Positions 6,311-64,000 of a stretch of 64,000 nt of DNA are shown piece by piece. Both the position numbers and the translations under genes were made by a program. The DNA is from Chimonanthus salicifolius. Taxonomy: Eukaryota; Streptophyta; Magnoliopsida; Laurales; Calycanthaceae. The notes beneath the pieces were generated by a model. That model made no database searches, was not told where the DNA came from, and saw nothing but the letters and a program-made list of their open reading frames with translations. The DNA lies in the NCBI GenBank assembly GCA_013350335.1, contig CM023535.1, forward strand, positions 24,211,746 through 24,275,745, given 5' to 3'. Positions within the stretch are counted from its first letter, which is position 1, and each line of letters starts with the position of its first letter.

Positions 6311-6575
6311 GTGATGGCTACGAATGTACATGATGGGGGTTGCTCATTGCATGTACATATTTTATAGAAGAGATGAAAGTGTGTTGTAATTTACCTTGTC
6401 AGTGCAAGGCACATCAAGTGATGGCTACGAATGTACATGATGGGGGTTGCTCATTGCATGTACATAGAAGAGATGAAAGTGTGTTGTAATTTACCTTGTC
6501 GGTGCAAGGCACGTCAAGTGATGGCTATGAAAGTACATAATGGGGGATGCCCATTGCATGTGCATATTTCATAGC
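6311..6575 (+). repeat. Tandem repeat in Tk-1 LTR
   Basis: Three units starting GTGATGGCTA at 6311, 6418 and 6518 (periods 107 and 100), the last one partial. Each holds a short inverted repeat around ATGTACAT. It occupies the position of the ~78-bp block of the other Tk LTRs but has a different sequence. Confidence 0.85.
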
Positions 6576-7155: not shown

Positions 7156-8450
7156 AGTGTGTGTATGCTGGGCAACCGAATATTGTTAAAGATGAATAAT
7201 TCACATCTTTACATGTCCATACCTCTTCTGCAACCTTTAAGTTGATTGCTGTATTTGGTGACATGTTGACCACATAACATGCATGGTTGATTGTTTCTGC
7301 CCAAGAACCTTTGGACAAGCCTGCATGCAATCTGATGCTCCTCATTCTCTCCAGAAGACTCATGTTCATCCTTTCTGCAACTCCATTTTGCTGATGAGTC
7401 TTGGGAACTGTGAAATGCATTGTGATCCTTTCATCTTTGTAACATTTTAGAAATCTACTGTGTTTGTATTGACCACCATTGTTTGTTATCAAATACTTGA
7501 TTATTCTACCTGTTTGATTTTCTACTTTTGCCTTTCACTCTTTGAACTTAGTGAAGACTTTTGGTTTTTCCTTCATGAAGTAGATCCAAAGCTTTCTTGA
7601 AAAATCATCTATGAATGTCACAAAGAAGGAAGCTCCACCTTTTGACTTAATCGGGGTTGATTCCTACAAGTTTGAGTGAATATAGTCCAGAATACCACTA
7701 CTTCTACAATCCTTCCCTACAATTTTAAAAGCCACATTCCTTGTTTGCCAAGCACACAAAATTTGCAGAATTCTAACATGAATTACTTTACCCCCTTTAG
7801 CAACTGTCGTTTATGGAGTTCTCTCATGTCTTTCTCACTCATATGCCTTAGCCACATATGCCACAATTGAGACTCAATTGCACTGCTATTTTTTTTTTTT
7901 TTTCTATGGAGACTGCTGCTCCACTTGAAACTATATTCACTTTCAGTTTGTACAGGTTGTTGCCCAATCTAGTGTCTTTCATTAACACCATTGTTCCCTT
8001 AAACAATTCGAGTGTATCTTCCTTTCCTGAGAATGTGCACCTTTTGATTCCAGTTTGCCTGAGGATATCAAATTTTTCTTGAGTACTGGCACATGTTTCA
8101 CATCTCCCAAAGTTTTCACAACTCCATCAAACATTTTAATTTTTATGGTGCTTATTTCAATCGCCTTACAGGGTGCATCATTTCCAATTAGAACACTAAC
8201 ACCATTATATGACTCATGTATAAAAAAAGTCACGGTTAAGGCACATATGATACGAACAATCGGAATCTAAGATCCAAGCATCGAATAGAAGTGTAATTGA
8301 GAGAAAGCTAGGACTTCCATCTCACGTTTTGAAGCAACACTAGCTGTGTCATCCTCTTTAGTCTTCTTCCCATAGTGTTATTCGCCCTATATTCCCCCAA
8401 TCTCTTTTCCAGTGTCCCTTTTTACCATAGTATAAACATTTTAAGTCATT
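7156..8450 (-). pseudogene. Co-1: Ty1/copia gag-protease-integrase remnant
   Basis: Read on the reverse strand from about 8441. First a gag zinc knuckle CLYYGKKGHWKRDW, with two of three Cys lost. Then a protease site WILDSDCSYHMC near 8270 (DSG changed to DSD), and the conserved copia stretch LTDVRHVP-like plus KKNLIS (8233-7982). Then a GAG-pre-integrase segment (LWHMRLRHM, FCKFCVLGKQ; about 7860-7700), followed by the integrase core: FVTFIDDFSRKLWIYF (first Asp), TNNGGQY (second Asp now Asn) and QQNGVAERMN (Glu kept). Several stops and frame changes. The rest of pol is cut off at 7155 by Tk-1 and should continue to the left of Tk-1, outside the window. Confidence 0.88.
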
Positions 8451-11990: not shown

Positions 11991-12410
11991 TGTAATACCC
12001 CGGATTTTCAATTTGTTATTTTATATAAAAATTATCCATTTTTAATTGTGAATTTTAGATTGGATCTTATATGGATAAGGAATTGGGCCATGACCCAATT
12101 AGGACCCAATTAAATTGTGGTATTGGTTTTTATCAAAAATTAAATAAGAGAGTACAAGGCCGTGTATGGAGATAATAATATCCATATTATGCGCATGGGA
12201 TATTTTAAAAGGGAATGTATATTGTCTTCAATTAAATTAAAAGATTACTTAGATTATGATTAATGTTATGCGCATAGTACTTGCTAATTAGAATTAAAGG
12301 AAGGTCTTAAATTAAGCAAGGGAGGTCAGCATTGCCATCTAAGGCAAGGGATGGGAGCACGGCACTCACATCACCATCTTAGAACCTTCTAAGATTAGAC
12401 ATTGGAAAAT

Positions 12411-12417
12411 TATAAAG
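12411..12417 (+). promoter_or_regulatory. TATA-like box of LTR Tk-2
   Basis: TATAAAG lies about 185 bp upstream of the donor-like GT at 12596, leaving a purine-rich leader of about 150 nt if transcription starts about 30 bp downstream. Position and sequence only. Confidence 0.45.
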
Positions 12418-12628
12418 AGGAGAGGTAGCAAGGGGCGCATGGTTTATAGCGCCCCTTAGCCGAATTTTATCTCTCTTCTCTCAAGGCTCATATACGGCAA
12501 TACACAAAGAGAAGGCAGCAACAAGAAGGTGTTCTTGGTTGGAGGAAAATTAAGAAGAAAGAAGAAAGATTGGAAGAGCAAAAAGGTTAGTATCTTGAAT
12601 AATTTTATTTATGAAACAAAAGAACCAT

Positions 12629-14336
12629 AGGGTTCGGCCATGGTGGTTGGCCGAACCCCATGGAGAAAGATTGAAGATGATATAATGATTTAAATGGAAG
12701 AAGAATGGGAGATCATCTTGATAAATTTTAATAGAAAAAAAAAGGGATGAGGTTCGGCCATGGTGTATGGCCGAACCCCATCAAATACAATTATGGATTT
12801 GGGGTTCCTAAGACTTTGAATCATGTGGATTGATTTATGAATTGTAAAGGATTGAAAACCCCCATGGAAAGGATATCAATAAGGTGGTTTGATTAATTGG
12901 ATGATCATGGTTTAATTAAATGGAGATATGGTAGAGATGTGTGGGTCGGCCATGGCATGGCCGAACCATGATTGTTTTTATTGGTTAAGTTGTTGGATCT
13001 AAAATAAAAAAAAGGGGTGAGGCCAAACATTTTTATGGATTGGTGATGGATTTTAATTGGATCTAAACCAATGGCCAAGATCATGAACCATAGGGTTCGG
13101 CCATGGTGTAGGGCCGAACCCCATGGGGTAATTTTGGAATGGTGGATGGATTTGGAATGGAGAATAAAATAGGAAATTATCTAATTTTAGAATTGGTTGC
13201 TAAAATTGGAAAGCATCCAAATATGAAAGGAGTTGCTAAACTTGGAAGGCATCCAATAATGGAAAGATAGTTTCTAATTTAGGAAACTATCTATCTATAG
13301 AAGTTTGTTTAATATAGGAAAATGTCTATTCTTGGAAAGTGGATATTGAAATTAGAAAATATCTAATTATAGACCATGAAGATTAATTATGGAAACTACT
13401 CAAGAATGGAAGGTGGAGATTAATTCTGGAACTTAGATCAATTGAATGAATTGGTTGCCATGAGTGAGGTTCGGCCATGGTGTATGGCCGAACCCCACTA
13501 GGGTTTACTTTTGGGAAACCTTTTTAATTATGGAATATGATATCTAATTATGGAATCTATATTTGGAAAGCATTCAATTAAGGAAAGGTGGTTTCTAATC
13601 TAGGAAACTATATAAGTATGGAGAATGGTTATTAATTGGGAAGTTTCTATTTTGGAAGAAGTTGGCTAAATTAGAAAGCTTCTAATTTGGGATGGTAAAT
13701 ATGGAAACCTTCTAATAATAGAAGGTGGAGTCTAATTAAGGAAACCTTCCAATTATGGAAAGGTGTAGGTTATTTATGGAAACAACCTAAGTATGGAAGA
13801 ATTATAGTACATATGGAAACCATAGGGTTTGGCCATGGGTATGGCTGAACCCCATGGAATTGGTTTGGTATTTTTAGTGTAAATGAATATATGGTTATTA
13901 ATTTAGAAAGTGGAGATAAGATTGGAAACAAAGGTATCATGGGTTCGGCCATGTGTATGGCCGAACTCCATGAATAAAAAATTATGGGTTAGGCTTCGTG
14001 TTTTGTTAAATCATGTAAAGGGTTAATGACTTTAAAAGAAGCTATGGGTTATGTAAGCCATGAGTGGCAAAGTTGTAATACTTGTTAAAAAAATGGAAAC
14101 TTAGCTTTGTATGGCGATAAGGTAAATATATGAGGAATTATTTGGAGAACTTAGATGTTTAGGATCTATGTAGTTGGATCTAAACATGGGAATTGATTAG
14201 CGAACCTAGGGTTATGTACTTTGGATGAAAATAAATAGAATGTTAACTAAGGTTTGACCAATGGCATTATTGTAATTATGGACAAAAAAAATGGTAGACC
14301 ATGGGTTTCGGCCATGGTGTATGGCCGAACCCCATG
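12629..14336 (+). repeat. Hairpin array in Tk-2 (8 copies)
   Basis: Copies at about 12629, 12750, 12942, 13092, 13467, 13823, 13940 and 14303. The best have arms CCATAGGGTTCGGCCAT and ATGGCCGAACCCCATGG around loop GGTGT: 17-nt arms with one fixed A/C mismatch. Between copies (13140-13800) run loose repeats of GGAAACTTTCTAATTATGG type. Confidence 0.9.
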
Positions 14337-14722
14337 GGGTTTTGTTTATGAACTTAGAACCTTGTAATCAAGTTGGACTTGGTGTTGATTTATTATTATA
14401 TTATAAGGTAACGGAATCTCGCAAGCGGTGCGCAATCGGTGATCGAATCTTGGACGGAAACGCAATGACTCGTGAACGGTCTTTGGTAGGATTCCACCTC
14501 TTTGAAACCATGGATTATGTACTTTGTTTTATCTTATGTTTGATGAAAATATGTTTCAAAGGATATGCTTTATTATTGAATTCCAAATGCTATGTTTAAA
14601 TTATTTAAATAACATGGATTGATTATTTTTCAAAAGGTGATTTTAAATGCTATGTTTACCTTATTAAAATAGCATGTGTTTCATTGGCATCTCATACATG
14701 GCACGGGGTGGAGGATTTATAA

Positions 14723-14850
14723 CCGGAGGGGTCACACTCCATCGGGGCATCCGAAAAACCTATGTGCGGTACCTTGATGTGCTTTTCCATCAGGAAGAAA
14801 CCGGAGGGTCCACACTCCGCCGGGGCGTCCGGAAGACCTATGTGGTGGGT
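14723..14850 (+). repeat. 78-bp tandem repeat in Tk-2
   Basis: Two units starting CCGGAGGG at 14723 and 14801 (period 78), each with CACACTCC and CGGGGC(A/G)TCCG. Between them is a mini-stem CTTGATG..CATCAGG (14773-14794). The same block occurs in Tk-3, -4, -5 and -6. Confidence 0.85.
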
Positions 14851-15488
14851 ACATTTATGTACATGTGATGGGTGAGGCTCATTGTATTTGTCATCATTGC
14901 ATGGCATGGATTTTACCTGGTTTTATATATTATGTTATAATATATGTTTTGTACTAACTATGTGTTAGCCGTAACTGGAATACCTACTGGGTGCATTGTT
15001 CTAACGCCCTACTTCTACCCTAGTTGATGATACAGGTATTCAGGGGAACGAGGAACGTAAGACGGGGCAGGCTTAGGAACTTGGAAGACTTATTTTACAT
15101 GTTTTGAATAAAGTTACTCATAAACTGTATTTGAGTATTTGGATTTTGGAATGTAATAACTTAGATGGTCGAATGATTTAGTTTGATGATTATGACGTTT
15201 TAATAATGATTAAGGACTTGACGTACTTTGCTATCTGAATGGAGTAGAACTTGGTTCTATTATGATTCCGCATTTTGATGTTATGATTCCGCAGGTTATG
15301 ATTTTATTCCGCAAGTTGATATTGCTATGTGAACCATTTTCCATGGACTTGATCCATGCACACATAGGGTTGGCCAGTTAAAAAAAAAATATACTCTGAA
15401 TTTACGGGAAGAAGCAAGTGAAAAAGGGAGGGCGTTACATGCCTCTCTGTGGAGGCGCTGCTCCCTGTGATGGAGGTCTAGTAGGTAC

Positions 15489-27632: not shown

Positions 27633-29047
27633 TAGTGTGTTTACCCGCGATTATGGCTTTTGGGGTTCATTGTTGAGACTTGTGTTGTGGGTGTTGACTC
27701 ACCAGGAATTTATGGGCACCTAACAAATGAGTTCAGCCTGCTTACTCGGTAGAAGACTTATAGAATTCTGTGAGGGGTGGATACACCAGTCGTGTGGAGA
27801 CCAACGGATGAGGTCCAAAGGTTATAGGTTTGATTATCGAGAGTCTAGTGCTTGGTGGAGGAGACCATAGATGAATCTGGTTGGCAGTCCTTTGAGGACT
27901 GGTGGGGTGGTTACTCCCGTGTAGTAACAGGTTTGGGACTCTAGTGAGCCCGACTCTTGGGTTGGTCGTGATATTTGTGCGGGTTGTCATGAGACGGTCA
28001 TAGGTCTGGTCGAGGATTATGGATTCTGATCCTGTTGGAGATTAGTCTGAGTACCCGACGGTGGGTGGACTGCAGCGGATGGGCACATGAGGGAGTTGCC
28101 ATAGAGTTGTATTGGGTTTGTTAGAGGATGTGCTGGAGGCCAGACAGATGTGGGCCCGTGTGTTAGGGGTAGGCCACCCGCTTGCATAGTTATGCATGTA
28201 GACATCATAGACATTGATGTGCTCATATGATCATATACAGTGTGTGCTTGGTGACATGATGCGTGTTTTTCCCTCACTGGGCATGTAGAGCTCACCACTT
28301 GCCTCACAGGTACTTCATAAAGGAAGGGTCAGCGGGACCCTCAATCGGGTGTTGGGTGTGGAGCTACAGCTTTGTACTTGGTCATAGTTCCATTTTGTAA
28401 TGTAACACCCTGCCCTTTTTCACTTGCTTCTTCCCGTAAATCAGAGTCTATTTTTTTTTATAACAGAGTAGAGTGATAGAGCGCGGGACGTCACGACGTG
28501 AGCTAAGTCCGAACTTCTAAAGTCCGACCCTTAACTGGCCAACCCAATGTGTGCATGGACTAAGTCCATGAAAAACGGTTCACACATAACAATATCAAGT
28601 TGCGGAATTAAAATCATAACGTGCGGAAATAATAATAGAACCAAATTCTATTCCATTCAGATAGCAAAGTACGTCAAGTCCTTAATCATCATTCAAATAC
28701 CATAATTATCAAAATTAACATCCAACCATCTAAGTTATTACATTCTGAAATCTACATACTCAAAATACAAGTCCATGAGTAACTTTATTAAAAATTATAA
28801 ACTAAATCATCCAAGCTCCTATGCCTGGCCTGTCTTGTGTTCATCGTTCCCCTGATTTCCTGTGTCATCCACTAGGGTAGAAGTAGGGCGTTAGTACAAC
28901 GCACCAAGTAGGTATTCCAGTTACGGCTAACACATGGTTAATACAAAACATATATAATAATATCGTAATGTCAAAAACCATATAAACCATGCCATGCAAT
29001 GATGACAAATGCAATGAGTCCCACCCATCACATGTACATAACAGAAC

Positions 29048-29176
29048 CCACCACATAGGTCTTTCAGACGCCCCGACGGAGTGTGGGCCCTTCGGTTTCT
29101 TTCTGATGAAAAATCACATCAAGGTACCCCACATAGGTTTTTCGGACGCCCCGACGGAGTGTGGCCCCTCCGGTTA
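29048..29176 (-). repeat. ~78-bp tandem block in Tk-3
   Basis: Two units with CACATAGGT.TTTC(A/G)GACG and CCCCGACGGAGTGTGG. Same block as in Tk-2. Confidence 0.82.
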
Positions 29177-29551
29177 CAAATCCTTCACCCCATGCCATGC
29201 ATGAGATGCCAATGAAACACATGCTATTTTAATAACATAAACATAGCATTTAAAATCATATTAAAACAAATGATATTTCCTCATATAAACATAGCATTTA
29301 AAAGTCATCATTTAATACATATCCTTTGCAGCATAAATTCATCAAAAATAAGATAAACACAATGTACGTAAACCCATGGTTTCAAAGAGGTGGAATCCTA
29401 CCAAAGACCGCTAACGTGTCCTTGCGTCTTTCGTCCGGTAACCGCTCACGATCGTAAGCACCTTGTGAGGTCCCGTTACCTTATATACATCAATTAATCA
29501 AAACCATGTCCCATTTGATTTAACATTATGTTTAAGTCCATAAACAATTCC

Positions 29552-30921
29552 TCATGGCCGAACCCATGATCCTTCAGTTTTGCTTTGTATTTACAACAAT
29601 GCCATTCATGGATAACATAACCATAATCCAATCCTTTTCCTCCATTAATAAATGCCTAAGTCCATGTCTTGATCCACAAATCCATCTCATGGGGTTCGGT
29701 CGTACATCATGGCCGAACCCATGATCTTTCAATTTAGGCGATATTTACAAAATTGTCATTGGTTCCATCAACTTATATTTGAGTTCTAACACATAGTTCC
29801 ATTCATTTATTTAAACATTCATAACACTCCCATTAACCCTTTAAAATAATTCATAACCGATTTCTTTAAACATATTAGGTCCCTACTTGACCCATAAAAA
29901 TACTTAACCACTTAAGTCCATAAAGAACCTCATGGGGTTCGGCCATACACCATGGCCGAACCCATGATCCTCCATTTTGGCCTTTATTACCAAATTGTCA
30001 TTACCTCATGTTCAATTCCAATCCGATCCTTAATCTAAACATGATCCATAAGAATTGGTTCATGGGGTTCGGCCAAGCACCATGGCTGAACCCTATGATG
30101 TCTAAGTTTCCATTTTCATCAATAATCCATTATTAACAAATCCATAATTAATCAGTCCATAATTAAAAGGTCCATATTTAGAAACTTTCTAAATTCCATA
30201 TCCAACTTCCATACTTAGAAAGTCCCTAAATAGAAACTTTCTAAATTTATCAATTCCTATTCTTGGATCCCTAACTCCAAGTTCTTTCCATAATTTTAAA
30301 GCTTCCAAATTAAAATTCCATAATTAGAAAGTTCCTAATTAAAACTTTCTAATTTAGTCTCCACCTTCCAAAAATAGAAACTTTCCCATTTTAATCTCCT
30401 CCTTTTATTTTTTTAGAAACTTTCTAAATAAACAAACTTCCATAAATAAACTTTAGTGGGGTTCGGCCATACACCATGGCCGAACCTCACCCATAGAAAC
30501 AAATCTAACCCTTTCCATTATTTTCTAAATTAATAACATCCTCCATGGGGTTCTGCCATACACCATGGCCGAACCCTATGGTTCATGATCTTGACCATTA
30601 TTTACTCCTTGATCCTCCATTATTTAATCCCATTAAAATTCAATGATAATACTAACACCACTCCATGGGGTTCGGCCATACCCATAGCCGAACCCTATGG
30701 TTCATAATCTTCCTCTAAAAAAAATTATTAACAATAACATTCATCCCTTCAAAACATTGGTATTCCTTCCATGGTTTTTATCATTCAAACCTTCATTAAA
30801 TAAACCATGTCCTTCCATTGCATGGCCGAACCCTATGGTTCATCATTCCATTAAAATCATCAAACCATCTCCCAATCTTCTTCCATGGGGTTCGGCCATA
30901 CACCATGGCTGAACCCTATGG
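29552..30921 (-). repeat. Hairpin array in Tk-3 (7 full, 2 half copies)
   Basis: Full copies at about 29688, 29932, 30061, 30457, 30543, 30662 and 30883. Half copies (right arm only) at 29552 and 30818. The loop reads ACACC on the plus strand. The 30457 copy has outer pair GTG/CAC instead of CCAT/ATGG. Confidence 0.9.
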
Positions 30922-31855
30922 TTCTTTTATTTTAAAACAAATTTATCAAATAAAAATACCAACCGGTTCCGATTGATTCTTGCTCTTCCAATCCTTCTCC
31001 TTTCTTCTTAATTTTTTTCTCCAAAACTGAAAACACCTCTTGCTGGCTGCCTTCTCCTTCTCCTTGTTCTTGCCGTGAATGAGAACTTGAGAGAGGGAGA
31101 GAGAGATGTGCAATCCGTGCGCCCTTGTCCTTCTCTCCTTTTATTACTTACAATTAAACCTAACTTAGAAGGTGCTTAAGATAGCCAATTCCCCTTAGGC
31201 CGTGTACCCTTGCTGTCCTTCTCTTAAAACCTCCACTCGGCCATCTCATTTAGACAATGCCGAGTGCACCTTTCCTTCCTCTCTTTTCTAGTTTCCAATT
31301 GATCCAATCTATACTTAGATAATACCAATATACAATTGCCGTGTGCCCTTCCTTGTGCCCTAATTGGAAGTTGCCGACCTTCCCACTTTAGCAATGTCAC
31401 ACACGGCCACACAATCTCTATTTAATTAGACATCTTCTTTATTTAATTTTAGACAATTTGCACACCCTTTTTAAATGATCTCATGTGCCCAACATAGATA
31501 TGGTAATCCCTATACACGGCCAATGTAATCTTCATTTGATTTTTAAACATCTCTTTGGATATTCAAATCCAATATTCGGCCATGTACAATCATCCCTTTC
31601 CTTATTTATTTAATATTGCATTATTAATTAAATTCAATCTCATTTAATTTTTATTGAAACCAATTCCAAAACCGTTGGGTCCCAATTGGGCCAATGACCC
31701 AACTCATTACCCAATTTAAGATCCATAATGAATATTCACAAATTAAATGGATTATTTTCATACAAAATAATAAATTGAAAATCCGGGGTGTTACAATACA
31801 ACCCTCTTTTTAAAATTTTCGTCCCGAAAATCAAGTGAAGTAGGGTTTCAAACAT

Positions 31856-33857: not shown

Positions 33858-34504
33858 TGTAACGCCCCGCCCTTTTTCACTCGTTTTCCCTTCCGAAAAT
33901 CAAAGTCTATTTTTTTTTTTTATAAACAAAGAGTGATAGAAAACAGGACGTTACGACGCGAGGTAAGTCCGAACTTCTAAAGTTCGACCCGTAACTGGCC
34001 AACCATATGTGTGTATGGACTAAGTCCATGAAAATGATTCACACATAACAATATAAACATGCGGAATAAAGATCATAACATGCAGAATTAAGATCATAAC
34101 ATGCAGAATAATAATAGAACCCAGTTCTATTCCATTTCAGATAGCAAAGTACGTCAAGTCTTTATCCATAATTAAAATATCATAATTATCAAAATAAACA
34201 TCCAACCATAGCCAACCATCTAAATTACTACATGTCCGAAGACTAGTTAATCAAAATATAAACTAAATCATCCAAGCTCCTATGCCTGGCCCGTTTCGCG
34301 TTTATCGTTCCCCTCGTTTCTTATATCATCCACTAGGGTAGAAGTAGGGGGTTAGAACAACGCACCCAGTAGGTATTCCAATTAGGGCTAACACATGGTT
34401 AGTACGAAACATGCATATAACATAATAATAAATCCATATAAAAACAATGCCACGACATATGTAGTATACAATGAGTCCCACCCATCATAAACACATGTAT
34501 CATT

Positions 34505-34741
34505 TTGATGGAATTCTCATCATCAAGGTACCCCCACATAGGTCTTTTGGACGAACCGACCGAGTGTGGCCCCTCCAGTTTCTTCTTGATGGGATTCTCA
34601 CTATCAAGGTATCCCACATAGGTTTTTCGGACGCCTCGACGGAGTGTGGCCCCTCTGGTTTCTTCTTGGTGGAAAAACACATCAAGATATCCCACATAGG
34701 TTTTTCGGAAGCCCCGACGGAGTGTGGCCCCTTCGGTTACA
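34505..34741 (-). repeat. ~79-bp tandem block in Tk-4 (3 units)
   Basis: ACATAGGT.TTT.GGA units at about 34536, 34615 and 34694, each with GAGTGTGGCCCCT. Between units are mini-stems TTGATG/CATCAA (34505-34526), CTTGATG/TATCAAG and CTTGGTG/CATCAAG. Confidence 0.85.
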
Positions 34742-35059
34742 TATCCTTCCCCATGCCATGCATGAGATGCCAATGAAACACATGCTATTTTATCATATAA
34801 ACATAGCATTAAAACTTACATTTAAAACATATCTTTTTCCACATAAAATCATCAAATAAGATAAGAAACATTGTACATAAACCCATGGTTTCAAAGAGGT
34901 GGAATCCTACCAAAGACCATTATGTGTCCTTGCGCTTTCGTCCGGTAACCGCTCACGATCGTACACACCTTGTGAGGTCCCTTTACCTTATAATATAATA
35001 ACAATTAAAACCAAGTCCCACTTGATTTACAATAATGTCCAAGTCTATAAACCAAACTT

Positions 35060-36661
35060 GTGGGGTTCGGCCATACACCATGGCCGAACCTCACCCCTTT
35101 TTGTTTTAGTTTCCTTTTTGCTCATTTATTCAATTAAGTCCACACCCATGCCATCCTTGATTCATAAAACCAAACATTTAATCACTTCCCTTTTATTTAA
35201 TCCAACATACATAAACCCTAAGTCCATCAAAACAATCCCCATAGGGTTCGGCCACACACCATGGCCGAACCCATGGTCTTTCATTTTTTACCATATTTAC
35301 ATTTATGCCATTCATACCACTTTTATTCATTAATCTAATGATAAACCAATTAATCATCTAAGATACATCAGACCTTAAGTTCAACAAACATTGCCCATGG
35401 GGTTCGGCCATGGTGTATGGCCGAACCCATGGTCCAATGATTTCACTTAATTACCATTTTGCCATTATACATATCCATAGCCATTTACCTTGCTTATGTT
35501 CCAAAATAATCCATACATAGTTCTTTAATCCAAACACATAATCCAACACATAGTTCATGGGGTTCTGCCATACACCATGGCCGAACCCATGGTCCCTTAT
35601 TTCCATTTAAATTACAATATTGTCATTCATGACTAACCTTCCATTTTGGCATGTATTTACAACTTTGCCATTACCTTAGGTTTATGTCTCTCCATTAATC
35701 CAATCACCATATTAAGTCCATACATGATCCATAAAGTTGATTCATGGGGTTCGGCCAAACACCATGGCCGAACCCTATGATGTCTAACTTTCCAAATATA
35801 GCAATTGCCATCCTTGAATCCTTAAATCAAGGTTCCTTCCCAAAACAATCCAAGAGTCCATAATTAGAAACTTTCCAAATTTAGCAATTCCATTCTTGAA
35901 TCTATAATTCAAGGTTCCTTCCATAATTAGAAACTTTCCAATTTTAATAACCACCTTCCATGGTCTCCATTTAATCAATCACCAAAATAAGTCCATCTAT
36001 TTTTTTCCATGGGGTTCGGCCACACACCATGGTCGAACCCTATGGTTCCAAATCCTCTCTTTAAAAATTATTAATAACATTCCATGTATCTAAAAACCAT
36101 CAACCATACATCCATTTAAAATTATCATAATTGTTCACTAATTCTCTTTCATGTAAATCATTATTTCCATTAAACTAAATGATAACTCCCTTTAAAATAT
36201 AACCAATCTCTTTCCATGGGGTTTGGCCATACAACATGGCCGACCCCTATGGTTCATCATCTTCCCTTAAAATTATTTTATTCATCTCCCAACTTTCTTC
36301 CATTTAATCCCTTCAAAAGCATTGGTATTCCTTCCATGGTTTCCATCCTTAAATCCATAAATTAAACCATGTCTTCCATGGTTTCTAATCCATAGAAATA
36401 ACCAAAGTTCCTCCATGGGGTTCGGCCCTTCATCATGGTTGAACCCTATGGTTCAACAACTTCTCTCTAAACCATTTAAACCCTTTTAAAAATCATAAGC
36501 ATACATCTATAATTTTTCCATCATTTAAATCCATTATCATTCACTAATGACCTTCCATGGGGTTCGGCCATGGTGGTTCATCATTCCATTAAAATTATCA
36601 TATTCATTCCCTCAATTTTCTTCAATGGGGTTCGGCCATACACCATGGCCAAACCCTATGG
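35060..36661 (-). repeat. Hairpin array in Tk-4 (10 copies)
   Basis: Copies at about 35060, 35239, 35396, 35557, 35743, 36008, 36215, 36413, 36554 (half) and 36625. This is the richest array. Most have arms GGGGTTCGGCCAT and ATGGCCGAACCC with loop ACACC; single-base decay is mostly at CpG. Confidence 0.92.
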
Positions 36662-36878
36662 TTCCTTATCTTAAACAAAAATATCAAAAGTACTTACCGG
36701 TTCCACCACTCCTCCGGTTTTCTTTTGGTTGTTCTTGTTTTTCCAATCCTTCCCCTTCTCTTGATGTATGCCGTGAACACCTTCTTGCCAATGTGCAAAC
36801 CAGCGTCAATCCTTGCTGATTTTGTGTAATGCCGTGTGCACTACCTTTCCTTGATGTATGTCGTGTGCACTACCTTAA

Positions 36879-36885
36879 TTTTATA
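36879..36885 (-). promoter_or_regulatory. TATA-like box of LTR Tk-4
   Basis: TATAAAA on the reverse strand, about 185 bp upstream of the donor at 36697. Same spacing as in Tk-2. Confidence 0.45.
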
Positions 36886-37434
36886 GAAGTTCCACTCGGT
36901 TCCATATTTAGACAATGCCATGCGATCCTTGTGTTGCCTCTTTATAAAACCTTCCAATTAATTCTATCTTAGAAGGTGCCGACCTTCCTCTTTATCTTAT
37001 AAGGCTCCACACGGTCCTACATATTTTTAGAAGATGCCAAGCCCTTTCATTTAGCAATTTCCATTCAATCCTAAATATTTTTAGAAGGTGCCATGCGCCC
37101 CTTCTTTCTTGCAAATCCCTAGTATCTCTCTTAATAAAAGAAAGGACTCCTTTTAAAGATACTCCACACCTCATGCGCATATCTCATGGATATGCGTATG
37201 TCACACACGGCCATGCAAACTATATCCAATCCTCACCATGCGCATAATCATGGATTGCATTACTAATTTAACTCGGCCCCATTTAATTTTTATTAGAACC
37301 ATTTCCACAATCCGTTGGGTCTTAATTCGGCAATGACCCAACATTTTACCCATATAAGGTACATATCTAATAATTCACAATTTAAATGGGTAATTTTCAT
37401 ATATATTAATAACTTGAAAATCCGGGGTGTTACA

Positions 37435-43366: not shown

Positions 43367-44257
43367 TGTAACACCCCGGATTTTCAAGTTATAAATATTT
43401 AAGGAAATTACCCATTTAATTTGTGAATTTTAGATATGGATTTTATATGGGTAAAGTGTTGGGTCTTTGCCCAATTAAAATCCAACAGATATGTTCTAGT
43501 TTCAATTTAAAATAAATGGGTAAGATGTGTTTAATTGGGTCAAGGTTGTTATTTGGGTCAAAATGTCCAATTGGGACCCAATGGGTCATGGTTAACTTGG
43601 TTGACCACCAAGTAGATTCAACCCTAAATAAATGAGGCTGAATTAAATTAGTAATGCAAGGGATATAAATGAATTGTTATGCACATGATGTGTTAGAATA
43701 TCTTGAGAAGATATCTAAGATTAATTTGAAAGGATGCATGGCCGAATATGGGGTGTGCAAACCTATGATTCTGTGCATAAAGGGATCATGGAAAGATTTT
43801 AGAAATGATAAATATTATTTGGCCGTGTATGTGAGGTGTATAGAGGATATGCGCATGAGCACTTTCTAAGTTAGGACCCATTGGAGATTAATAAGGAAAG
43901 GTAGTATACACGGCATACATGAAGGAAAGTTGGTGAAACACGGCATTGTCTAAGATGGGATTAAAGGGCAGCCGACCAAAGGAAGGGAGCTTTAGCAATT
44001 GCTATCTTGGCACCTTTTAAAGTGGGACAAATTAGTAGTAATAAAAGGAGAGAAGGAGAGGCACACGGCATACACCAAATCAGCAAGGATTGGCACTGGT
44101 TTGCTCTTGACAAAAAGGTGTTTTCAGCTTGTGAAAGATCAAGGAGGAGAAGAGGCTAAGGAAGAAGAAGGATTGGAAGAACAAGCGAAGGAAAAACCAA
44201 AGGAGTCGCGTAAACGGTTAGTAGTTTGATTTTATATTTTTGTTTAAAAGAAAAGAA

Positions 44258-45664
44258 CCATAGGGTTCGGCCAAGGTGTATGGCCGAACCCCATGGAAGA
44301 GAATTGGTACATGGAAGAAGAATGGGGCATTGATTTTAAATAATTTTAAGGAAAAGGGCTGAACCATAGGGTTCGGCCATGCAATGGAAGGGTTTTGGTG
44401 ATTTTAATGGAGGAACATGGGTCATATTTTTATGGATGATGATTGGTAAATTTAATTTGATCTATGGGTTGGAAAACCATGGAAGGACATTGTTTGGTTT
44501 AATGGATTTCAAAAGGATTTAAATGGAATTATGTTAATGCAATTAGATCATTAAATTAATGGAAGCATGAACCATAGGGTTCGGCCACAATGCATGGTCG
44601 AACCCCATGTAAGAATATTGGTTAAATGTATGGATTTAAAATGGTAGTTAAATGGTTCAAGAGGAAATTAAAGGACCATAGGGTTCGGCCATGGTGTATG
44701 GCCGAACCCCATGGAGTTGGATTGATATTTTTAATGTATTTTAATTGATTTAATGGAAGGTTGGATCCTAGGTTTGTAAACTTTCTAATTATGGAGTTGG
44801 ATATTTAATTTAGAAAGTTTCTATTTAAGGACTTTCTAATTATGGAGTTGGATATTAATTTGGAAAGGATCCAAGAATGGAAGGAATTAATTGTTTTTGG
44901 AAGGTAGAGATTAAATTGGAAAGTCTCTAATTTTGGAAGGAAGAGATTAAATTGGAAAGTCTTTAATTTTGGAAGGTAGAGATTAAATTGGAAAACCTTC
45001 TAATTATGAAAGGATGGATGCAAAGTTTGGAAACTTTCTAATTATGGAATTTATATATTAAATTTAGGAAATTTCTATTTATAAACCAATAAAGGGATCA
45101 TATGGGTTTTATGGATCGGTTTTGGACATAAACCTAAGGATGGCAAAGATGTAAATGTATGCTAAAAATTGGAACTTAGACATCATGGCCGAACCCCATG
45201 AACCAATTTTTATGGGTCATGTATGGATTTAATATTTAAATGAATGGTGGACCAATTAGAGAATGCAAATAAATGAATTATGGATTATGTTATGGGATTA
45301 GGGTTTTATTTTATGAACCATGAATCAATGATGGATTATGTTTTGGAATCTAGGCCTAAGTTGTTGGAGGCAATGGTAAAGTGGTAAATAAGAGTGAAAG
45401 TGCTAGACCATGGGAATTATTTGGTGAACTTAGATGTTTATGAATTTGTTTCTAACCTAAACAAGAAGAATGTTTTGGTTATGATTAGACCAATGGCAAG
45501 GTTGTAAATACTTGCTAAAATGGAAGGTTAGACCAATGGCAATTTGGTAAAAAATGTGAAAATGGTAGGTCATGGGTTATGTTACCCATGGATGGCATTG
45601 TTGTAATTATGGTAAAAAATAAGGGACCATGGCTTTGGCCATGGTGTGTGGCTGAACCCTATGG
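44258..45664 (+). repeat. Hairpin array in Tk-5 (4 full, 2 half copies)
   Basis: Full copies at about 44258, 44573, 44673 and 45627; half copies at 44365 and 45181. Between them (44770-45080) run GGAAAGTTTCTAATTATGG-type loose repeats. Confidence 0.88.
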
Positions 45665-46055
45665 GGATTGGTGTATGGACTTAAAATATTGTAAATCAAG
45701 TGGGACTTGGTTTTGATTGATTAATATGTAATAAGGTAACGGGATCTTACAAGATGTGTACGATCATGAGCTGTTACCGGACGAAAGACGCAAGGACACG
45801 TTAGCGGTCTTTGGTAGGATTCCACCTCTTTGAAACCATGGTTTTATGTACATTGTTTTTATCTTAATTTTGATGAATTTATGTTGCAAAGGATATGTTT
45901 CAAATGGTGATTTTAAATGCTATGTTTATATGATTAAAATAGCATGTGTTGAATACGTTTCAAAATGTGATTTTTAATGCTACGTTTATATGATAAAATA
46001 GTATGTATTTTCATTGGCATTTGCATCTCATGCATGGCATGGGAGGGATGATATG

Positions 46056-46325
46056 TAGCCGGGGACCCACACTCCGTCGGGGCGTCCGTAAAGCACTTGT
46101 GGGGGATTACCTTGATGAGGAGAATTCCATCAAAAGGATACTATGTGTGAAATGTAGCCGGAGATCCACCACTCCGTTGGGGCATCCGTAAAACAATCGT
46201 GGGGGATACCTTGATGTGATTGCCATCAAGAAGATTCCGGAGATCCACCACTATGTCGGGGCGTCCGTAAAATAATCGTGGGGGATACCTTGATGAGGAG
46301 CTTTCCATCAAGAGGATATTTTGTG
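46056..46325 (+). repeat. Tandem block in Tk-5 (3 units)
   Basis: Units with CCACTCCGTYGGGGCGTCCG and GTGGGGGATACC, separated by mini-stems CTTGATG/CATCAAG at 46111, 46210 and 46289. Confidence 0.87.
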
Positions 46326-47060
46326 ATGGGTGGGACTCATTGCATATGATAGCATGGCATGGCATTGAATCGGCATGATTATGACTTTTATTATCATGCA
46401 AGGTTTCTGGTTTTTATCTGTATGATTGGATCTCTATTATCATACATTGTTTTGGATACGATGTTTTATAAGTATGGTATGATTTATTATAACTGGTTTT
46501 GATATATTTATTATATCTGGATTTTTGGTACTAACCCATGTGTAAACCCTACTTGGAATATCTACTGGGCGCGTTGTTCTAACGCCCTACTTCTACCCTA
46601 GTTGATGATACATGAAACGAGGGGAACGATGAACTCGAAGAGGGACAAGCATAGGACCTTGGATGCTTTTAGTTTATATTTTGTTTAAGATACTCATGGG
46701 CTTGTATTTTGAGTATCTAGAATTCAGATTGTAATAACTTAGATGAATTTGCTATGGTTGGATGTTTTGTTGGATAATTGCGTTATGATAATGATTATTA
46801 AGGACTTGACGTACTTTGCTATCTGAATGGAATAGAATTGTGTTCTATTATGTTTCCGCATGTTTATGTTGCTATGTGTGAACCGTTTTCTTAGACTAAG
46901 TCCAAGCACACATAGGGTTAGCCAGTTAAGGGTCGGACTTTAAAAGTTCGGACTTAACTCGCATCGTGACGTCCTGCTCTCTATCACTCTACTCTGTTAT
47001 AAAAAAAAATAGACTCTGATTTTACGGGAAAAAGCGAGTGAAAAAGGGCAGGGCGTTATA

Positions 47061-56294: not shown

Positions 56295-57011
56295 TGTAAC
56301 ACCCCGCCCTTTTCACTCTAAATTTTCAGAGTTTATTTTTTTTTTTATCAATAAGTGATCGGGGCGGAATGTCACGATGCGAGTTAAGTTCGGATCTCTA
56401 AATCCGACCCTTAACTGGCCAAGCCCATGTGCGTATGAACTAAGTCCATAAAACTGATCCGCACATGGTACATATTTACTTAGCGGAATAAACTTAGTCT
56501 AGATCTAACTGAGGTTATAATAGAACCTATGATTAATCCAATTTCCATTTTTAGATAGCAAAGTACCTTATTTATTTTCCAAAATTATTATATAACCTTA
56601 GTCTACTATTCATTCCAAACCATTCAAATAAATCCAACCATAGCATCTACTTAACTACTTATTACATGCCAACATCTAATTTAACAAATTACATTGTTCC
56701 AAATAAATCAACTAACAAATCCATAAATAATCCGTTCATAGTCTATTGCAATCATTCAAATCGCCCAAGTTTTCGTACTTGGTCCTCTTCTCCAACCACG
56801 TTCTTTCCTTTCCCTGCATCATCCACTAAAGATATAGATAGGGCGTTAGATCAACGCGCCCAGTAGTGTTTCCGAATAGGGCTACCACATGGTTAGTCAA
56901 AATCATGCAAATAGGATAATAGTTATACATGTGTGACAAATTCTATAAAAATATGCTATGTATGAAATGAACATGTAATGAGTCCCACCCATCACCATTC
57001 AACATAGCCAT

Positions 57012-57165
57012 CACTTGACGGGATTCTCATCGTCAAGGTAACCCACAGTGGTCTTTCGGACGCCCCGACGGAGTGTGGCCTCCGGATTCCTCCTGATGGG
57101 ATTCTCATCATCAGGGTACCCCACAATGGTCTTTCGGACGCCCCGACGGAGTGTGGCCTCCGGTT
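57012..57165 (-). repeat. Tandem block in Tk-6 (2 units)
   Basis: Two units with GGTCTTTCGGACGCCCCGAC and GGAGTGTGGCCTCCGG. Mini-stems CTTGACG/CGTCAAG (57014-57037) and CCTGATG/CATCAGG (57092-57115) show compensated changes. Confidence 0.9.
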
Positions 57166-57463
57166 ACTTCCCCATCATCCCATGCTATGCATGAGATGTC
57201 TATGCAAACATGCCATTTGTAAATATAACATTTGATTCAAATAACTTATTCAAATAAACATAAAACAGCGAATAAGTTGTGTGGTTACAACAAGGTAGGA
57301 AACCTACAATATTTTTACTTTGTTCGACCCTTCCTTTGGACCGTCTTTCGATCATGACTTTGTACACCGTTCTAGAAATCCGAATACCCTATATACATGG
57401 CAGCAAGTTAATCATTTGACCATATGATTCTAATTTGATTTAAATCCCAAAAATCCACTTTGT

Positions 57464-58660
57464 GGGGTTCGGCCATACCCCATGGCCGAACCTCACCCAT
57501 TTAAACTTTGATAAATCTTTTATTTACTTAATACCCTCTAAGTATCCCAAACTTTTCAAATGACACTTGGTAGGGTTCGGCCATACTACATGGCCGAATC
57601 TTACCGCCTTAGGTTTTGGCTCATAAATCCATTCTTTTGATCATTTCATCTTTTCATCCTTATTTACAATAATGCCATTATGCTATCCTTAGCCTAATTT
57701 AGACAACAAAGTCCATTACATGACAATTGGTGGGGTTCGGCCACATAACATGGCCGAGCCTCACCCTAAAGATTTTAATCCTATTTTCCATCATCTTAAT
57801 ACCAAATCCATAATTGATGTGATTTCCATCTTTTTGAAAGCCAATCCAAACAACCAAATACTTACATGGGGTTCGGCCATCCAAGGTGGCCGAACCCTAT
57901 GTCCATGTTTTGGTCTTCTAAAACATGTGTTTGATGTTATTTAAACATACAAAATCAATATAATATTGCTGCCATTATACCTCTTAAACACCATCTAAAT
58001 CAGTTCATCTACTTGTCCCAAATGACCATATTAATTCATGAAATTCGGCAATCCAAAATGGCCGATCCAAATGATCCATTTCATCAGTTTTGGACCACTG
58101 TTTTAAACCATATTAACTTCAGTCCTTTGTCATACAGATCCATGCTTTTAACCCTTTCCAAAGCATGTATTTGAATCTTAAATAATAACCCAAAACAGTC
58201 CACATATTTCATGGCTTATATGTTTCAAATACATCACAACCATACCTTTATTTGCATGGGGTTCGGCCCTCCATGGTGGCCGAACCCTATGTCCTTTGGT
58301 TTTGAGTCTCTTAATCATTCATCTATGTCCAAAATAACTTCCTTATTTATGTTTTTACCTTTTTAAAATACACACTTAAAATCATCTAAATCAGTCCATG
58401 GGGTTCGGCCATACACATGGCCGAACCCTATGGTTCTCTTAATGGAAATCCACCCATATTTATCTATGAAATTAATCAGTAAATTAACATAAGATAAATA
58501 TGGTTTAGTCATGTCATATCCACTCCAAAACAGCAAGCTTAATTCCATATAAAAATCTTTTAAAATCCTCACTCCAAAATATGGATTTTTGACTTTCAAA
58601 TACCATAGAATCCACCAAGTTTTTCCATGGGGTTCGGCCATCCAATGGGGCCGAACCCTA
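57464..58660 (-). repeat. Hairpin array in Tk-6 (8 copies)
   Basis: Copies at about 57464, 57571, 57731, 57867, 58042 (degenerate), 58256, 58398 and 58626. Two have outer pair GTGGGG/CCTCAC rather than CCATGGGG/CCCTATGG. A weak ninth candidate is at 58716. Confidence 0.9.
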
Positions 58661-60366
58661 TGGTCCATATTTTATCGTTTTGAACATCATAATTCTAGGT
58701 CCAAACCATTGATGGATCTGGCCATTCAATGGCCAAATCTCATTTTCTTAACCAATCTATTAAACAAGGGTTCAAAATGCACTTACTAATACCGCGTCTC
58801 CTTCGGTTCCTTTGACTCCTTCTTTGCCCCTTTATCTCCTTGACCTCTCCTTCTTTCTTACTGTTCTTTGGGCTGAGACTGATCTTGATGCAAGCTCCTT
58901 GAGATAATTCAGCCAGGTGACAAGGACTTAAGAGAGTGAGAGAGAGAGAAAGGGAACTTTGGTCTTGAATAAAATTGCTATCCTTGTTGCCAAAACCCTT
59001 TTGCTGATTTTTGTCTAGATGAAAGAATTACCCAAAACTAATTGAAAAATAAACAACCAGCTGCTGCTCTTGGTTTAGAAAGATAGAGGACGTCTATGAG
59101 TGATAGAGGGATAGAGAGATAGAGAGAGTAAAAATGAAAATCCTTTCCTTGACCAAAAACAGCCCAAGGTTAATCCTTGTGTAACTCCCTCTCTACAATC
59201 AAGGTTCTTTATGTTACTTGGGGGTTTCATCTATGAAATGAAACACCCCAAGCAACCAACGTCCCTTGTGGTTGGACTAGTGTAACCCCCCTTTTCCTTA
59301 GATTCTCACATGGGAGTTTCATATTGAGATGTAACTCCCATGTGCTGCACCATTCTCCATTGTTTGCCTCTATGTTTTGGCCTATGTAACAGCCACCATT
59401 CCTATGTGTAACTCCACAAACAGCAGCTCCATTCAGCCCTCATCAACGTCCCATGTGGGAGTTCTATCATGGGAATAAAACTCCCCTCCTCCAAGTGTGA
59501 ACACACTTTGTAACCCCCATTGGTTTAGTATCTAATTTGAATTTGGAATGCCATAGAATGCCATAATCTATTGTGTGTAACTCCTCCAATAAGCTACCCA
59601 TTTTATTCTCCAACCTTGGAGTTACATGCATGAACCATTAATCCATGCATTGGCTGTCTTTTGGAGACCCAAGCAAGGCATAAACCCTATACCATCTTCA
59701 ATGTGCACAATGATTTGAAAACTCAATTCTCACCCATGTAACTCCATGTAACGTCATTTCCATTCTTAACTTGGGTGGGAGTTACATGCACATAAGTTTC
59801 CCATGCAGCCAACGTTTTTAGTGTTTGAATTTGAATCAGCCTACAATCCTTCTATCTCTACATCTTACTCATTTAAAAATACATATTCATTCAACTCATT
59901 TAATCAACTCACCCAACCTAACTCATTCATTTAATTTAACTTAACTAATAAATTCAACTCAACTTAACCAACCATTCATTTCAACTCAACCAAACTCAAA
60001 TAATTAATAGACTTAAATTAAATAAGCTTGAACTCAATCCATGGTTAATCATGCCATTCACACGACCCATTGGGTCCCATCTAGCCATTTTGACCCATTT
60101 AACCAAATTTGACCCAAATATGCTTCTTGACCCGTTTAAATTTATCTTACCCATTTATTTGTTTTGTAAACCAACTATCATCCTTTGGGTCTTGATTGAG
60201 CCATTGACCCATTTAAATTCAAATCAATTTTTATCACAATGGCAATTCCGTAAATATGAATATTTTCATATAAACTGATAACTTTGAAATTCCAGGGTGT
60301 TACAATACAATAATCTTTTTATAATTTTCGTCCCGAAAATCGAACGAAGTAGGATTTCAAAGTAAA

Positions 60367-63300
60367 TCATACAAACAATTCAGGGTGAGACGTTCTCATC
60401 TCCGATTCCAATTCCCAAGTGGCCTCCTCAACACCATGTCGATCCCAAACCACCTTGACGAACTGAATCGCTCGGTTACGCAACACCCTTTGCTCACTCT
60501 CCAATATTCCGACCGGCTTCTCGACATAAGTGACGTCGCTTTGCACATCTATATCTTGCACATTCAAAACATGAGACGGATCAGGGTTGTACTTCCTCAG
60601 CATCGACACATGGAATACATCATGTAGAGACGCCAATTGCGAAGGAAATGCCAACTGATAGGCCACATCTCCCATCCTTCTGATAATTGAAAACGGTCCC
60701 ACATATCTTGGCGACAATTTTCCTTTCTTCCCAAATCTCATGTGCCCTTTTCGTGGCGAGACCTTCAAGAATACCATGTCTCCCACTTCAAATTCGAGAA
60801 ACCTCCTCCTCTTATCAGCATAGCTCTTTTGCCGACTCTGTGCGGTCAACAAATGTTGACGTATCAACTGGATCTGTGCAGTAGTTTCTGCAACCAACTC
60901 AGGTCCTATCAGTGCAGGTTCGCCGACCTCGGTCCAGCACACTGGTGACCTGCATGGTCTACCATACAAAGCTTCGAATGGTGCCATCTGGAGGCTTGCC
61001 TGGTAGCTATTGTTATAAGAAAATTCCACCAATGGCAAATGATCCTCCCATCCACCTTTGAAGTCTAGCATGCATGCCCTCAACATGTCCTCCAACGTTT
61101 GTATTGTTCTTTCCGATTGTCCATCGGTCTGTGGATGGAATGCTGTACTAATAAGTAGATCGGTTCCCATGACCGACTGCATACTCTGCCATACCCTGCC
61201 GGTAAATCGGCCATCTCTATCAGACACTATAGTCTGTGGGATACCATGTAGTCTGATGATGTCTTTGATATATCTCCGACCCAATGTCTCTGATGAATCC
61301 GTCATCTTAATAGGAATAAAATGCGCGGACTTGGTCAATCGGTCTACCACAACCCATATAGCGTCATTGCCCTTTGAGGACCTCAGCAACCCCGTCACAA
61401 AGTCCATGGAAATGTGCTCCCATTTCCATTCTGGCACTGCTAAGGGTTTGAGTAACCCTGGTGGCTTCTGATGTTCCGTCTTAACCTGCTGACAAGTTAA
61501 ACAATGAGCCACGTAGTCTGCAACATCCTTCTTGAGTCCATGCCACCAATAATGTCTTTTTAAGTCATGATACATTTTTGTGCTACCCGGATGAATGGAC
61601 AACTTGCTCTGATGTGCCTCTATCAATAATTCTTTTCTGCAGCTTCTTGGCACATATATTCTACCCCGGAACATAAGACCCTGTCCTGGTCGTAATTCCC
61701 AATCCGGTACAACCTCGCCATTAGACATTTTGGCCCATGTCTCTGCCATTTCCGGATCTGTTCGTTGCTCCTGTTCAATCTTTGTAACCATGTTGGATCG
61801 TATGATCAAATTGTACATACTCCCATGGTTTGTGATGTATAGATTAAACTCACGAATGGAATTCAACATCTCCCATTCAGTCCTGATCAAACATGCCACT
61901 GATGCATGAGACATGCGGCTGAGAGCATCCGCCACTTTGTTGGCCTTTTCCGGATGATATCGAAGCGCAAATTCATAGTCCGCCAGATATTCCATCCATC
62001 TGCGCTGCCTCAGGTTGAGCTCTTTCTGATCAAATAAATACTTCAAGCTCTTGTGATCTGAAAATACTTCAAACTTCTCCCCATATAGATAGTGTCTCCA
62101 GCTTTTGAGAGCAAAGACCACCGCAGCTAATTCCAAATCATGTGTGGGGTAGAGGCGTTCATGTATCTTTAGTTGTCTTGAACCATATGCCACCACCCGA
62201 TTACGTTGCATGAGTGAACATCCCAGTCCCTCTCCTGATGCATCACATTGTACTTCATAACCTTTGCCCCTTTCCGGCAAAACTAGAATAGGAGCAGTTG
62301 TAAGTCTCTCTTTCAGCTCCTCAAATCTCTGATTGCACAGCTCTGACCATTCATATTTGACTCCTTTCTGCGTGAGTCGAGTCAATGGGGATGCAATTTT
62401 GGAGAAGTCCATGATAAACTTCCTATAATATCCAGCCAAACCCAGAAAACTACGGATTTCGATGACATTCTTTGGTGCTTTCCACTCACTTACTGCTGCC
62501 ACCTTAGCCGGATCAACGGCTATACCATCTGCTGTTATAACATGCCCTAAGAATTTGACCTCAGGTAGCCAAAATTCGCATTTGCTTGCTTTGGCATACA
62601 GCTGGTTCTGTCTCAAGGTGTTCAATACTATTCGAAGATGCTCAGCATGATCCTCCTGACTCTTGGAATAGATCAGGATATCGTCAATGAACACTATAAC
62701 AAACCAATCCAAATATGGACGAAATATTCTGTTCATTAAGTCCATGAACACAGCCGGTGCGTTGGTAAGCCCAAATGGCATGACTACAAATTCAAATAGT
62801 CCATACCGTGTTCTGAAAGCTGTTTTCTCGATGTCTTCCTCTTTGACCCGGATTTGATGATAACCGGACATCAGATCAATCTTGGAAAAATGACTGGATC
62901 CCCTCAACTGATCGAATAAATCATCGATCCTGGGTAGAGGATACTTGTTCCGGACAGTTAGCTGATTCAACTTCCGGTAGTCCACACACATTCTAAGTGA
63001 ACCATCCTTCTTTTTCACGAACAACACTGGAGCTCCCCATGACGATGTGCTGTTCCGAATGCAACCCAGTCTGAGTAATTCATCAAGCTGCTTCTTCAAC
63101 TCGGACATTTCTGCTGGTGCCATTCGATAATGGGGTAGAGACACTGGTGAGGTACCAGGATATAGCTTGATCTCAAAATTGAGCTCCCTCATGGGCGGTA
63201 TACCAGGAAGTTCTTTTGGAAAGACATCAACAAATTCTTTCACAATTGCTGGAAGTTCAGTGACTGGTGCTTTGTTGATGACAATATTGTTCAACACCAA

Positions 63301-64000
63301 GTGATGCAACCCTTCCTGCAATCTGCTTTGCTTGTCGGCACGAACTATATACTGCTTTCCCTCGGGTGACCAAAATGTCACTCTTCGGCGATAACAATCA
63401 ATATTGGCTTCATAACTAGCCAACCAGTCCATGCCAAATATAATATCGTACTCAGTCATGTCGAGTACCAAATAATTGAACTCAAATCTGAGTCCAGCGA
63501 GTTCTGTATTTATGGCCGTGCATATGAGTCCCAAAGACGTGTCTCCGACAGGGGATACTACTGTGAGTGTGGTGGACAGCTTTTGTACTAGTGTTCCAGT
63601 AGCAGTTATAAAGGATGCAGATATAAAAGAGTGCGATGCTCCAGAATCAAACAATGCATAAGCATAAGAACTATTGACAACGGCCATACCTTGAATCACA
63701 GAATGATCCACATCCTCAGGAGGTTCCAGAGCAAATAGTCGTCCAGATCCGGTAGGAGTAGGCGCCCGTCCCGCCTGATTATATGTCCTGCCTCCTCGGG
63801 AGTTAGCTGGCCTAGCTGGTGGACGGAAAGATCCTCTGGAATATGAGAGCCTATTGAGCTTTGGACAGTCTCTTTTGAAGTGACCCGGCTGGTTACAGTG
63901 GAAACAGTTGTTCACCCCTTTGAATGACTGGGTGACTGATGCAGATGGGGAGGGCTGGTTGGGACGAAAGCTCCCCGCGGACCCAGTAGATGGTGAGGGT
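60367..64000 (-). CDS. Tk-6 chromovirus Gag(C-term)-Pol polyprotein, open, 5' partial
   Basis: Gag-Pol of a Tekay/Del-like Ty3/gypsy chromovirus, uninterrupted to the window edge; it also stays open from 63916 to 63999, so the GTG at 63915 is not the start. Numbering from that GTG: zinc knuckle [14 protein letters not shown] (4-17); protease DSGASHS (90-96) and FGMDWL; RT 260-460 with FIDD at 409-412; RNase H with D558, E595, D620 and D663; integrase zinc H775/H783/C805/C808 and catalytic D838, D899, E935 (35-residue spacing); chromodomain about 1133-1172. All catalytic residues are present. The chromodomain of this clade directs insertion to heterochromatin, which fits the nesting seen here. 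Most of gag and the 5' LTR are off-window. Confidence 0.97.

Follow-up and report, generated by a model that had tools for sequence, protein, structure and literature searches.

The transcript of a retroelement must serve as both message and genome, and the locus described here raises the question of whether a plant element could divide these two roles by splicing inside its own long terminal repeat (LTR). The window, by which we mean the whole 64,000-nt stretch of DNA that was analyzed, is a nest of plant retrotransposons in which an initial annotation had picked out six related LTRs, each with an intron-like arrangement of features. This arrangement is real and conserved. As far as the sequence allows a judgment, we give an LTR intron in actual use a little less than an even chance.

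Six LTRs with a common interval

Complete LTRs of one Ty3/gypsy family, which the initial annotation called Tekay-type, were found at all six of the starts first proposed (A to F, 3395–4010 bp each; Table 1). They begin with TGTAA and end with GTTACA, or GTTATA in E. By reading frames and Pfam matches, A, C, and F come after the 3′ end of pol, and none of the six is followed within the window by an internal region of its own. LTRs B to E are 66–73% identical to one another, whereas A and F are only 52–58% identical to B to E and to each other, so that the six copies amount to about three independent lineages. At least one family member looks recently intact, because the element ending in LTR F has a 1210-codon open frame that continues to the window edge. 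This frame has the protease–RT–RNase H–integrase order of Ty3/gypsy chromoviruses, and a Chromo domain (PF00385) was matched at the C end in three of three elements, below the curated cut-off (E 0.018–0.12). Protein searches returned plant relatives among their matches. No relatives were recovered by the acceptor-block pattern in viral and genome contig collections or by the hairpin pattern in the viral contig collection, integrase searches of viral and genome contig collections gave no confirmed relative, and one 234-base stretch of LTR E had no match among plasmids.

Several insertions are nested. Element X (about 32190–47351) has a primer-binding motif at 38587, and its 5′ and 3′ LTRs appear to house LTR D and solo LTR E, respectively. 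The target into which LTR B inserted (15439–15716) ends in GTTACA and is followed by a primer-binding-like TGGTATTAGAGC at 15705; thus, LTR B probably lies inside the LTR of yet another element. A pair of direct repeats (18791–19754 and 24030–24995; 93% identical and about 5 kb apart) may be the LTRs of a separate short-LTR element.

Table 1. Coordinates of the LTRs, candidate introns and associated features in the window
Feature	Position	Strand	Remarks
LTR A	3521..7156	+	3′ LTR; own element's pol at 254-3454; TGTAAC..GTTACA ends; AGAGGG purine tract upstream; pol frames and Pfam matches upstream
LTR B	11991..15439	+	Solo LTR; 5-bp flanking repeat TGCCT
LTR C	28401..31795	-	pol 3′ end and AGAGGG purine tract immediately upstream
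LTR D	33858..37434	-	Apparently within 5′ LTR of element X; flanking repeat not clear
LTR E	43367..47060	+	Solo LTR; flanking repeat AGGCC; apparently within 3′ LTR of element X
LTR F	56295..60304	-	3′ LTR of the element with the long open frame
Element F open frame	60370..63999	-	1210 codons, to window edge; zinc knuckle, protease, RT, RNase H, integrase, SH3, sub-threshold chromodomain (Pfam)
A candidate intron	4619..6702	+	GTAAGT..CAG, 2084 nt
B candidate intron	12586..15023	+	GTTAGT..TAG, 2438 nt; donor corrected
C candidate intron	28872..30963	-	GTTGGT..TAG, 2092 nt
D candidate intron	34333..36697	-	GTAAGT..TAG, 2365 nt; copy named in the initial annotation
E candidate intron	44217..46601	+	GTTAGT..TAG, 2385 nt
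F candidate intron	56826..58786	-	GTAAGT..TAG, 1961 nt
A ATG-free run across donor	4407..4631	+	Putative leader exon; longest of LTR A
B ATG-free run across donor	12439..12611	+	Longest of LTR B; TATAAAGAGG at 12411 just ahead
C ATG-free run across donor	30904..31242	-	Longest of LTR C
D ATG-free run across donor	36644..36903	-	Longest of LTR D; TATA-like at 36885 and 36946
E ATG-free run across donor	43955..44280	+	Longest of LTR E
F ATG-free run across donor	58741..59228	-	Longest of LTR F; 487 nt
Alternative YAG (G of GCCAG/TTA)	A 7027 (+), B 15377, C 28535, D 33995, E 46925, F 56415		Conserved 6/6; 62-137 nt before LTR end
TGTAATAA, putative polyadenylation-like signal	A 6829..6836 (+), B 15152, C 28742 (-), D 34232 (-) as TGTAGTAA, E 46730, F 56666 (-)

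The common order, including a donor-like GTNNGT, a hairpin array, CTAAC, and AG, is present in all six full LTRs. The acceptors lie where they had been placed, as do five of the six donors; in B, the GT is at 12586 rather than 12596, a shift of 10 bp. The enclosed intervals measure 1961–2438 nt, in agreement with the 2.0–2.4 kb originally estimated. Each has GT–AG ends and a U1-like donor (GTAAGT in three copies, GTTAGT in two, and GTTGGT in one), and each has a branch-type CTRAY before the AG, inside the range of about 18–60 nt expected of a plant U2-type intron. The regular CTAAC spacing also held up, with the branch-type A 19–20 nt before the G of the AG in every copy, and the one copy reported to read TACTAAC is C. 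A second CTAAC or CTGAC lies 66–67 nt before the AG in five of six. The tract ahead of the acceptor is a mixture of C and T, with T making up 30–35% of the last 40 nt.

When the full LTRs were aligned with E-INS-i, all six donors fell in one column, as did the acceptors, except that A is shifted by one base, so that the aligned acceptor column is not AG in all six. When L-INS-i was used for the full LTRs, the donors of A and F stayed apart from those of B to E; 12 of 12 alignments of shorter segments cut around the donor placed all six donors in a single column. We scored the alignment columns with plant splice matrices against either the LTR's own base composition or a uniform background. With LTR composition, none of the 1703 sense columns scores higher as a donor than the candidate, which is also the sole one with GTNNGT in all six copies, and the acceptor is the best sense acceptor column (score 6.1) if one column of slack is allowed. 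Permutation of the matrices nevertheless gave equally good results 99 times out of 300 for the donor and 84 times out of 150 for the acceptor, and antisense donor columns reached 7.5, compared with 7.0 for the candidate. On a uniform background, the donor (7.8) is again the best sense donor column, yet it ranks fourth of 24 relabelled matrices and compares with scores of 8.6 for the complemented alignment, 7.3 for the reversed one, and 6.5 for the antisense strand, and the acceptor is absent from the five best sense columns. Because permuted, relabelled, and complemented controls often score as well, the splice motifs alone prove nothing. Scored in this way they do not clearly exceed chance, and we rejected the matrices as proof of splice sites.

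A putative ATG-free, U-poor leader ending at the donor-like site

Two features that do not depend on splice matrices mark the same position. In every LTR, the donor lies within the longest ATG-free run (172–487 nt; rank 1 of 135–172 runs), and these runs stop 12–63 nt beyond it. ATG is the most depleted of the 64 trinucleotides before the donor and, of 29 trinucleotides tested, the only one that ranks first in all six LTRs. The 170 nt upstream of the donor contain a single ATG over the six copies, compared with 12.8–15.0 expected from block shuffles, and AT is followed by G in 1 of 45 cases before the donor, whereas the corresponding counts are 154 of 500 for U3 and 672 of 1579 for the interval. 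The desert is strand-specific, and CAT is not depleted there (14 occurrences, or 14 of 45, vs 9.7–10.4 in block shuffles). Part of the effect is compositional, since TGA is scarce as well (4 vs 12.8 expected in the 160 nt before the donor). In single copies, the shortage does not reach significance (P 0.05–0.30), and its weight comes from the agreement among copies, not all of which are independent; the chance that a random point falls inside the longest run of one LTR is 0.05–0.12, estimated as run length over LTR length. Across the window and both strands, the six runs rank 2, 7, 11, 23, 33, and 76 of 3491 ATG-free runs, and in the parts of element X at 32190–33857 and 37435–39300 the longest ATG gaps are 98 and 117 nt.

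The ATG desert exceeds chance, and on the exon 1 side the sense strand avoids ATG as a non-coding leader would. Ribosome scanning could account for it. The longest ATG-free run of the window is a different one, on the forward strand at 25347–26184 (837 nt, GC 0.51), and 96-bp and 57-bp tandem arrays follow it at 26658–27572.

The second feature is base composition. The 52-nt flanks, taken before the donor and after the acceptor, contain 9.6–17.3% U and the interval 30.3–33.5%, so that the candidate intron is 1.9- to 3.2-fold richer in U. For comparison, the BARE1 intron, whose splicing was shown by experiment, has 37.5% U vs 13.5% in its flanks (PMC3735527, excerpt). The pair formed by the exact GT and AG has rank 229 among the 853,448 column pairs separated by 500 nt or more, rising to 24 when the acceptor end is moved by 2 columns and to 24–32 for shifts of 2 to 4 columns; joining column 4255 to the same acceptor side gives an equally good contrast. 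Because the pairs are strongly autocorrelated, we estimate their effective number at some hundreds. The U-contrast, too, exceeds chance. A donor-side leader exon, free of ATG, poor in U, and ending at a conserved GTNNGT, is therefore well supported.

TATA-like boxes had been noted upstream of the donor in two copies, and a strict pattern finds them in two of six (B, −175; D, −188 and −249), with TAATAAAAGG at the matching place in C and E. Taken together with the ATG-free run, the boxes in B and D suggest that transcription would begin about 150–200 nt before the donor. A reading that would dispense with splicing in the LTR gives each copy two promoters in the manner of BARE, with an upstream start producing a long hairpin RNA for packaging and a start at the conserved block near the acceptor producing the message. 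BARE has two TATA boxes for two RNA pools (PMC3735527, excerpt), and TATA-like boxes stand at both places in B and D. However, an RNA made only to be packaged need not avoid ATGs up to a GT, and by the strict pattern the upstream box is missing from four of six copies; we consider this reading very improbable.

The candidate acceptor and the sequence beyond it

Support for the acceptor is moderate and comes from the CTAAC at a fixed distance and the drop in U. The same region could also be taken for a core promoter. No other 100-column stretch of the LTR is as conserved as the block before the acceptor (0.72), and a TATA starts 82–101 nt before the AG in all six copies, for which a random LTR position has a probability of 0.08, although this range was chosen after looking. 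TGTARTAA follows 101–160 nt after the acceptor in all six, which would give the usual short R and U5. These observations, like the unexceptional splice motif scores, are consistent with an ordinary LTR whose U3 is long. Transcription would then start within the conserved block immediately ahead of the "acceptor," R would extend to TGTARTAA, the hairpins and tandem block would be regulatory repeats of U3, and the likeness to splice sites would be incidental. Such an LTR does not predict a strand-specific ATG desert that ends at the donor in six of six copies, nor U-poor segments that end at a GT and start at an AG. Moreover, its TATA is weak in F (score 5.3, TATAACTA) and in D (outside its 12 best), and its leader too would carry 13–17 ATGs. 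On balance, we think it somewhat unlikely.

These remaining ATGs are also a difficulty for the candidate intron. The initial annotation had splicing remove nearly all upstream ATGs, which is too strong: the interval holds 84–136 per copy, and 13–17 stay after the acceptor, where ATG is not avoided as in a non-coding leader. We do not read the enrichment of ATG in the interval as a sign of selection, because CAT is enriched there as well. Nearly all of the ATGs after the acceptor (93 of 94 in the six copies) precede the LTR tail. The segment from the acceptor to GCCAG/TTA has 93 over six copies compared with 50 expected, and the tail beyond has 1 in 717 nt compared with 11.0 expected. With 13–17 ATGs left beyond this acceptor, only an acceptor near or past the LTR end could yield a clean Gag leader.

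One possibility is that the leader exon and donor are real and that the mRNA is joined to GCCAG/TTA, or to an acceptor in the internal leader before gag, with the AG after CTAAC being alternative or unused. The ATG counts on the two sides of GCCAG/TTA favor such a junction, its YAG is one of two YAG columns present in all six copies, and the ATG-free tail ranks 2–7 among the runs of each LTR. The shortage in the tail is weak evidence, however, because CAT is low there too (3 vs 8.9 expected) and the tail is one conserved sequence. By eye, there is no pyrimidine run or good branch site ahead of GCCAG/TTA, and the U-contrast is smaller, with flanks of 17–21%. This reading seems improbable to us.

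Other interpretations of the region were rejected or found nothing. A small ORF that begins 4 nt after the acceptor (26–28 codons in B, C, E, and F, 2 in D, and absent from A) is not coding, because its variable sites by codon position number 15, 20, and 16 in B to F and 6, 15, and 11 in B to E. An unspliced reading with a protein from the first ATG past the donor gives only 5–36 codons in the six copies. No conserved GT for a second intron was seen by eye after the short U-poor start of exon 2 in the six LTRs. Separately, alignment columns 4187–4260 form a conserved U-poor block in all six LTRs, of which column 4187 is the best acceptor column on the uniform background; the block holds a palindromic GGTAGGWTTCC(T)ACC and could serve as an internal exon or have a structural role.

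Hairpins, possible splicing, and the two roles of the transcript

The interval was initially said to enclose every hairpin. This is true of the GGTTCGGCC..GGCCGAACC family, with all 40 of its LTR copies inside the interval (up to 2 mismatches per arm) and one weak copy outside the LTRs in the window, but not of perfect stems of at least 8 bp in general, of which 46 of 53 lie inside. Each LTR has 4–9 such hairpins, with near-identical GGTTCGGCC..GGCCGAACC arms and variable loops and positions. Many of the changes in the arms resemble, by eye, CpG decay rather than compensation. A known RNA family was also considered and rejected, since the window gave a single match with an E-value of 5 or less, which is at chance level (E 3.3) and under its gathering score.

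In the model that we prefer, the first exon of every LTR would be non-coding and would be followed by an intron of spliceosomal type, about 2.0–2.4 kb long, and by the beginning of a second exon. The leader, poor in U, rich in purines, and free of ATG, would run up to the conserved GTNNGT, and the hairpin- and ATG-rich segment would be spliced out of the message, with the AG after CTAAC or one farther downstream as the acceptor. If splicing occurs, the template for reverse transcription must be unspliced RNA, because all six LTRs keep the interval. We infer separate pools, in which spliced RNA would serve translation or another use and unspliced, hairpin-bearing RNA would serve replication; in that case, the hairpins would distinguish the RNA used as genome, and the leader exon would distinguish the message.

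Several known systems resemble parts of this model. In HTLV-1 and BLV, the donor lies in R and the acceptors lie outside the LTR. Caulimovirus leaders combine many short ORFs with hairpins, with acceptors outside the LTR, and CaMV uses shunting in place of LTR splicing. The enhancing 5′ UTR introns of plants are long, promoter-proximal, and preceded by a short non-coding exon, as the candidate would be, and the enhancing motif TTNGATYTG is present in only one of the six LTRs. An engineered lentiviral vector has reportedly been described with the words "intron in the LTR." In foamy viruses, the LTR holds the major splice donor, which precedes the polyadenylation signal, and U1 binding at that donor suppresses early polyadenylation (PMC3694450, excerpt). 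The donor is upstream of TGTARTAA in all six copies here, and U1 at the donor could act in the same way on a signal that would lie downstream of it. The foamy viruses differ in being retroviruses, and the candidate has an acceptor in the LTR as well.

Among plant elements, introns are generally missing from LTR retrotransposons, with Ogre and EVADE as named exceptions (PMC12786077, excerpt). Both Ogre (Ty3/gypsy) and EVADE (Ty1/copia) have introns that are functional (PMC6317226 and PMC12786077, excerpts), and in this they resemble what is proposed here, but the intron of Ogre lies between coding regions (PMC6317226, excerpt). The barley Ty1/copia element BARE1 is similar to the proposed system in having separate RNA pools, partial splicing, and exclusion of the spliced RNA from replication, whereas its intron is 104 nt long and lies at the end of gag, outside the LTR (PMC3735527, excerpt). 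Some expressed sunflower elements are alternatively spliced, and Tekay members are absent from the expressed set (PMC7730604, excerpt). ONSEN LTRs may contain splice sites (PMC12112155, excerpt). We found no description of an intron wholly inside the LTR of a plant element in the open-access literature, among the matches listed, and the excerpted text of Neumann 2011 on centromeric retrotransposons is without "intron" or "splic."

The fullest form of the proposal is a plant Ty3/gypsy element with a complete intron in its LTR, which would make the LTR a two-exon unit. Its hairpins would be present only in unspliced RNA, in the manner of a retroviral packaging signal located beyond the major donor. 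Whether an RNA became genome or message would be decided by splicing alone, and the intron would survive because spliced RNA is never copied. We regard this combination as fairly unlikely to hold in its entirety. If it is true, an intron wholly in the LTR would be copied to both ends of each new insertion, and the choice between genome and message would be coupled to leader splicing. Such an intron could also account for the retention of hairpin arrays, and of about 100 upstream ATGs apiece, by very long plant LTRs. Finally, every solo LTR would offer a first exon with a donor, able to splice into neighboring genes.
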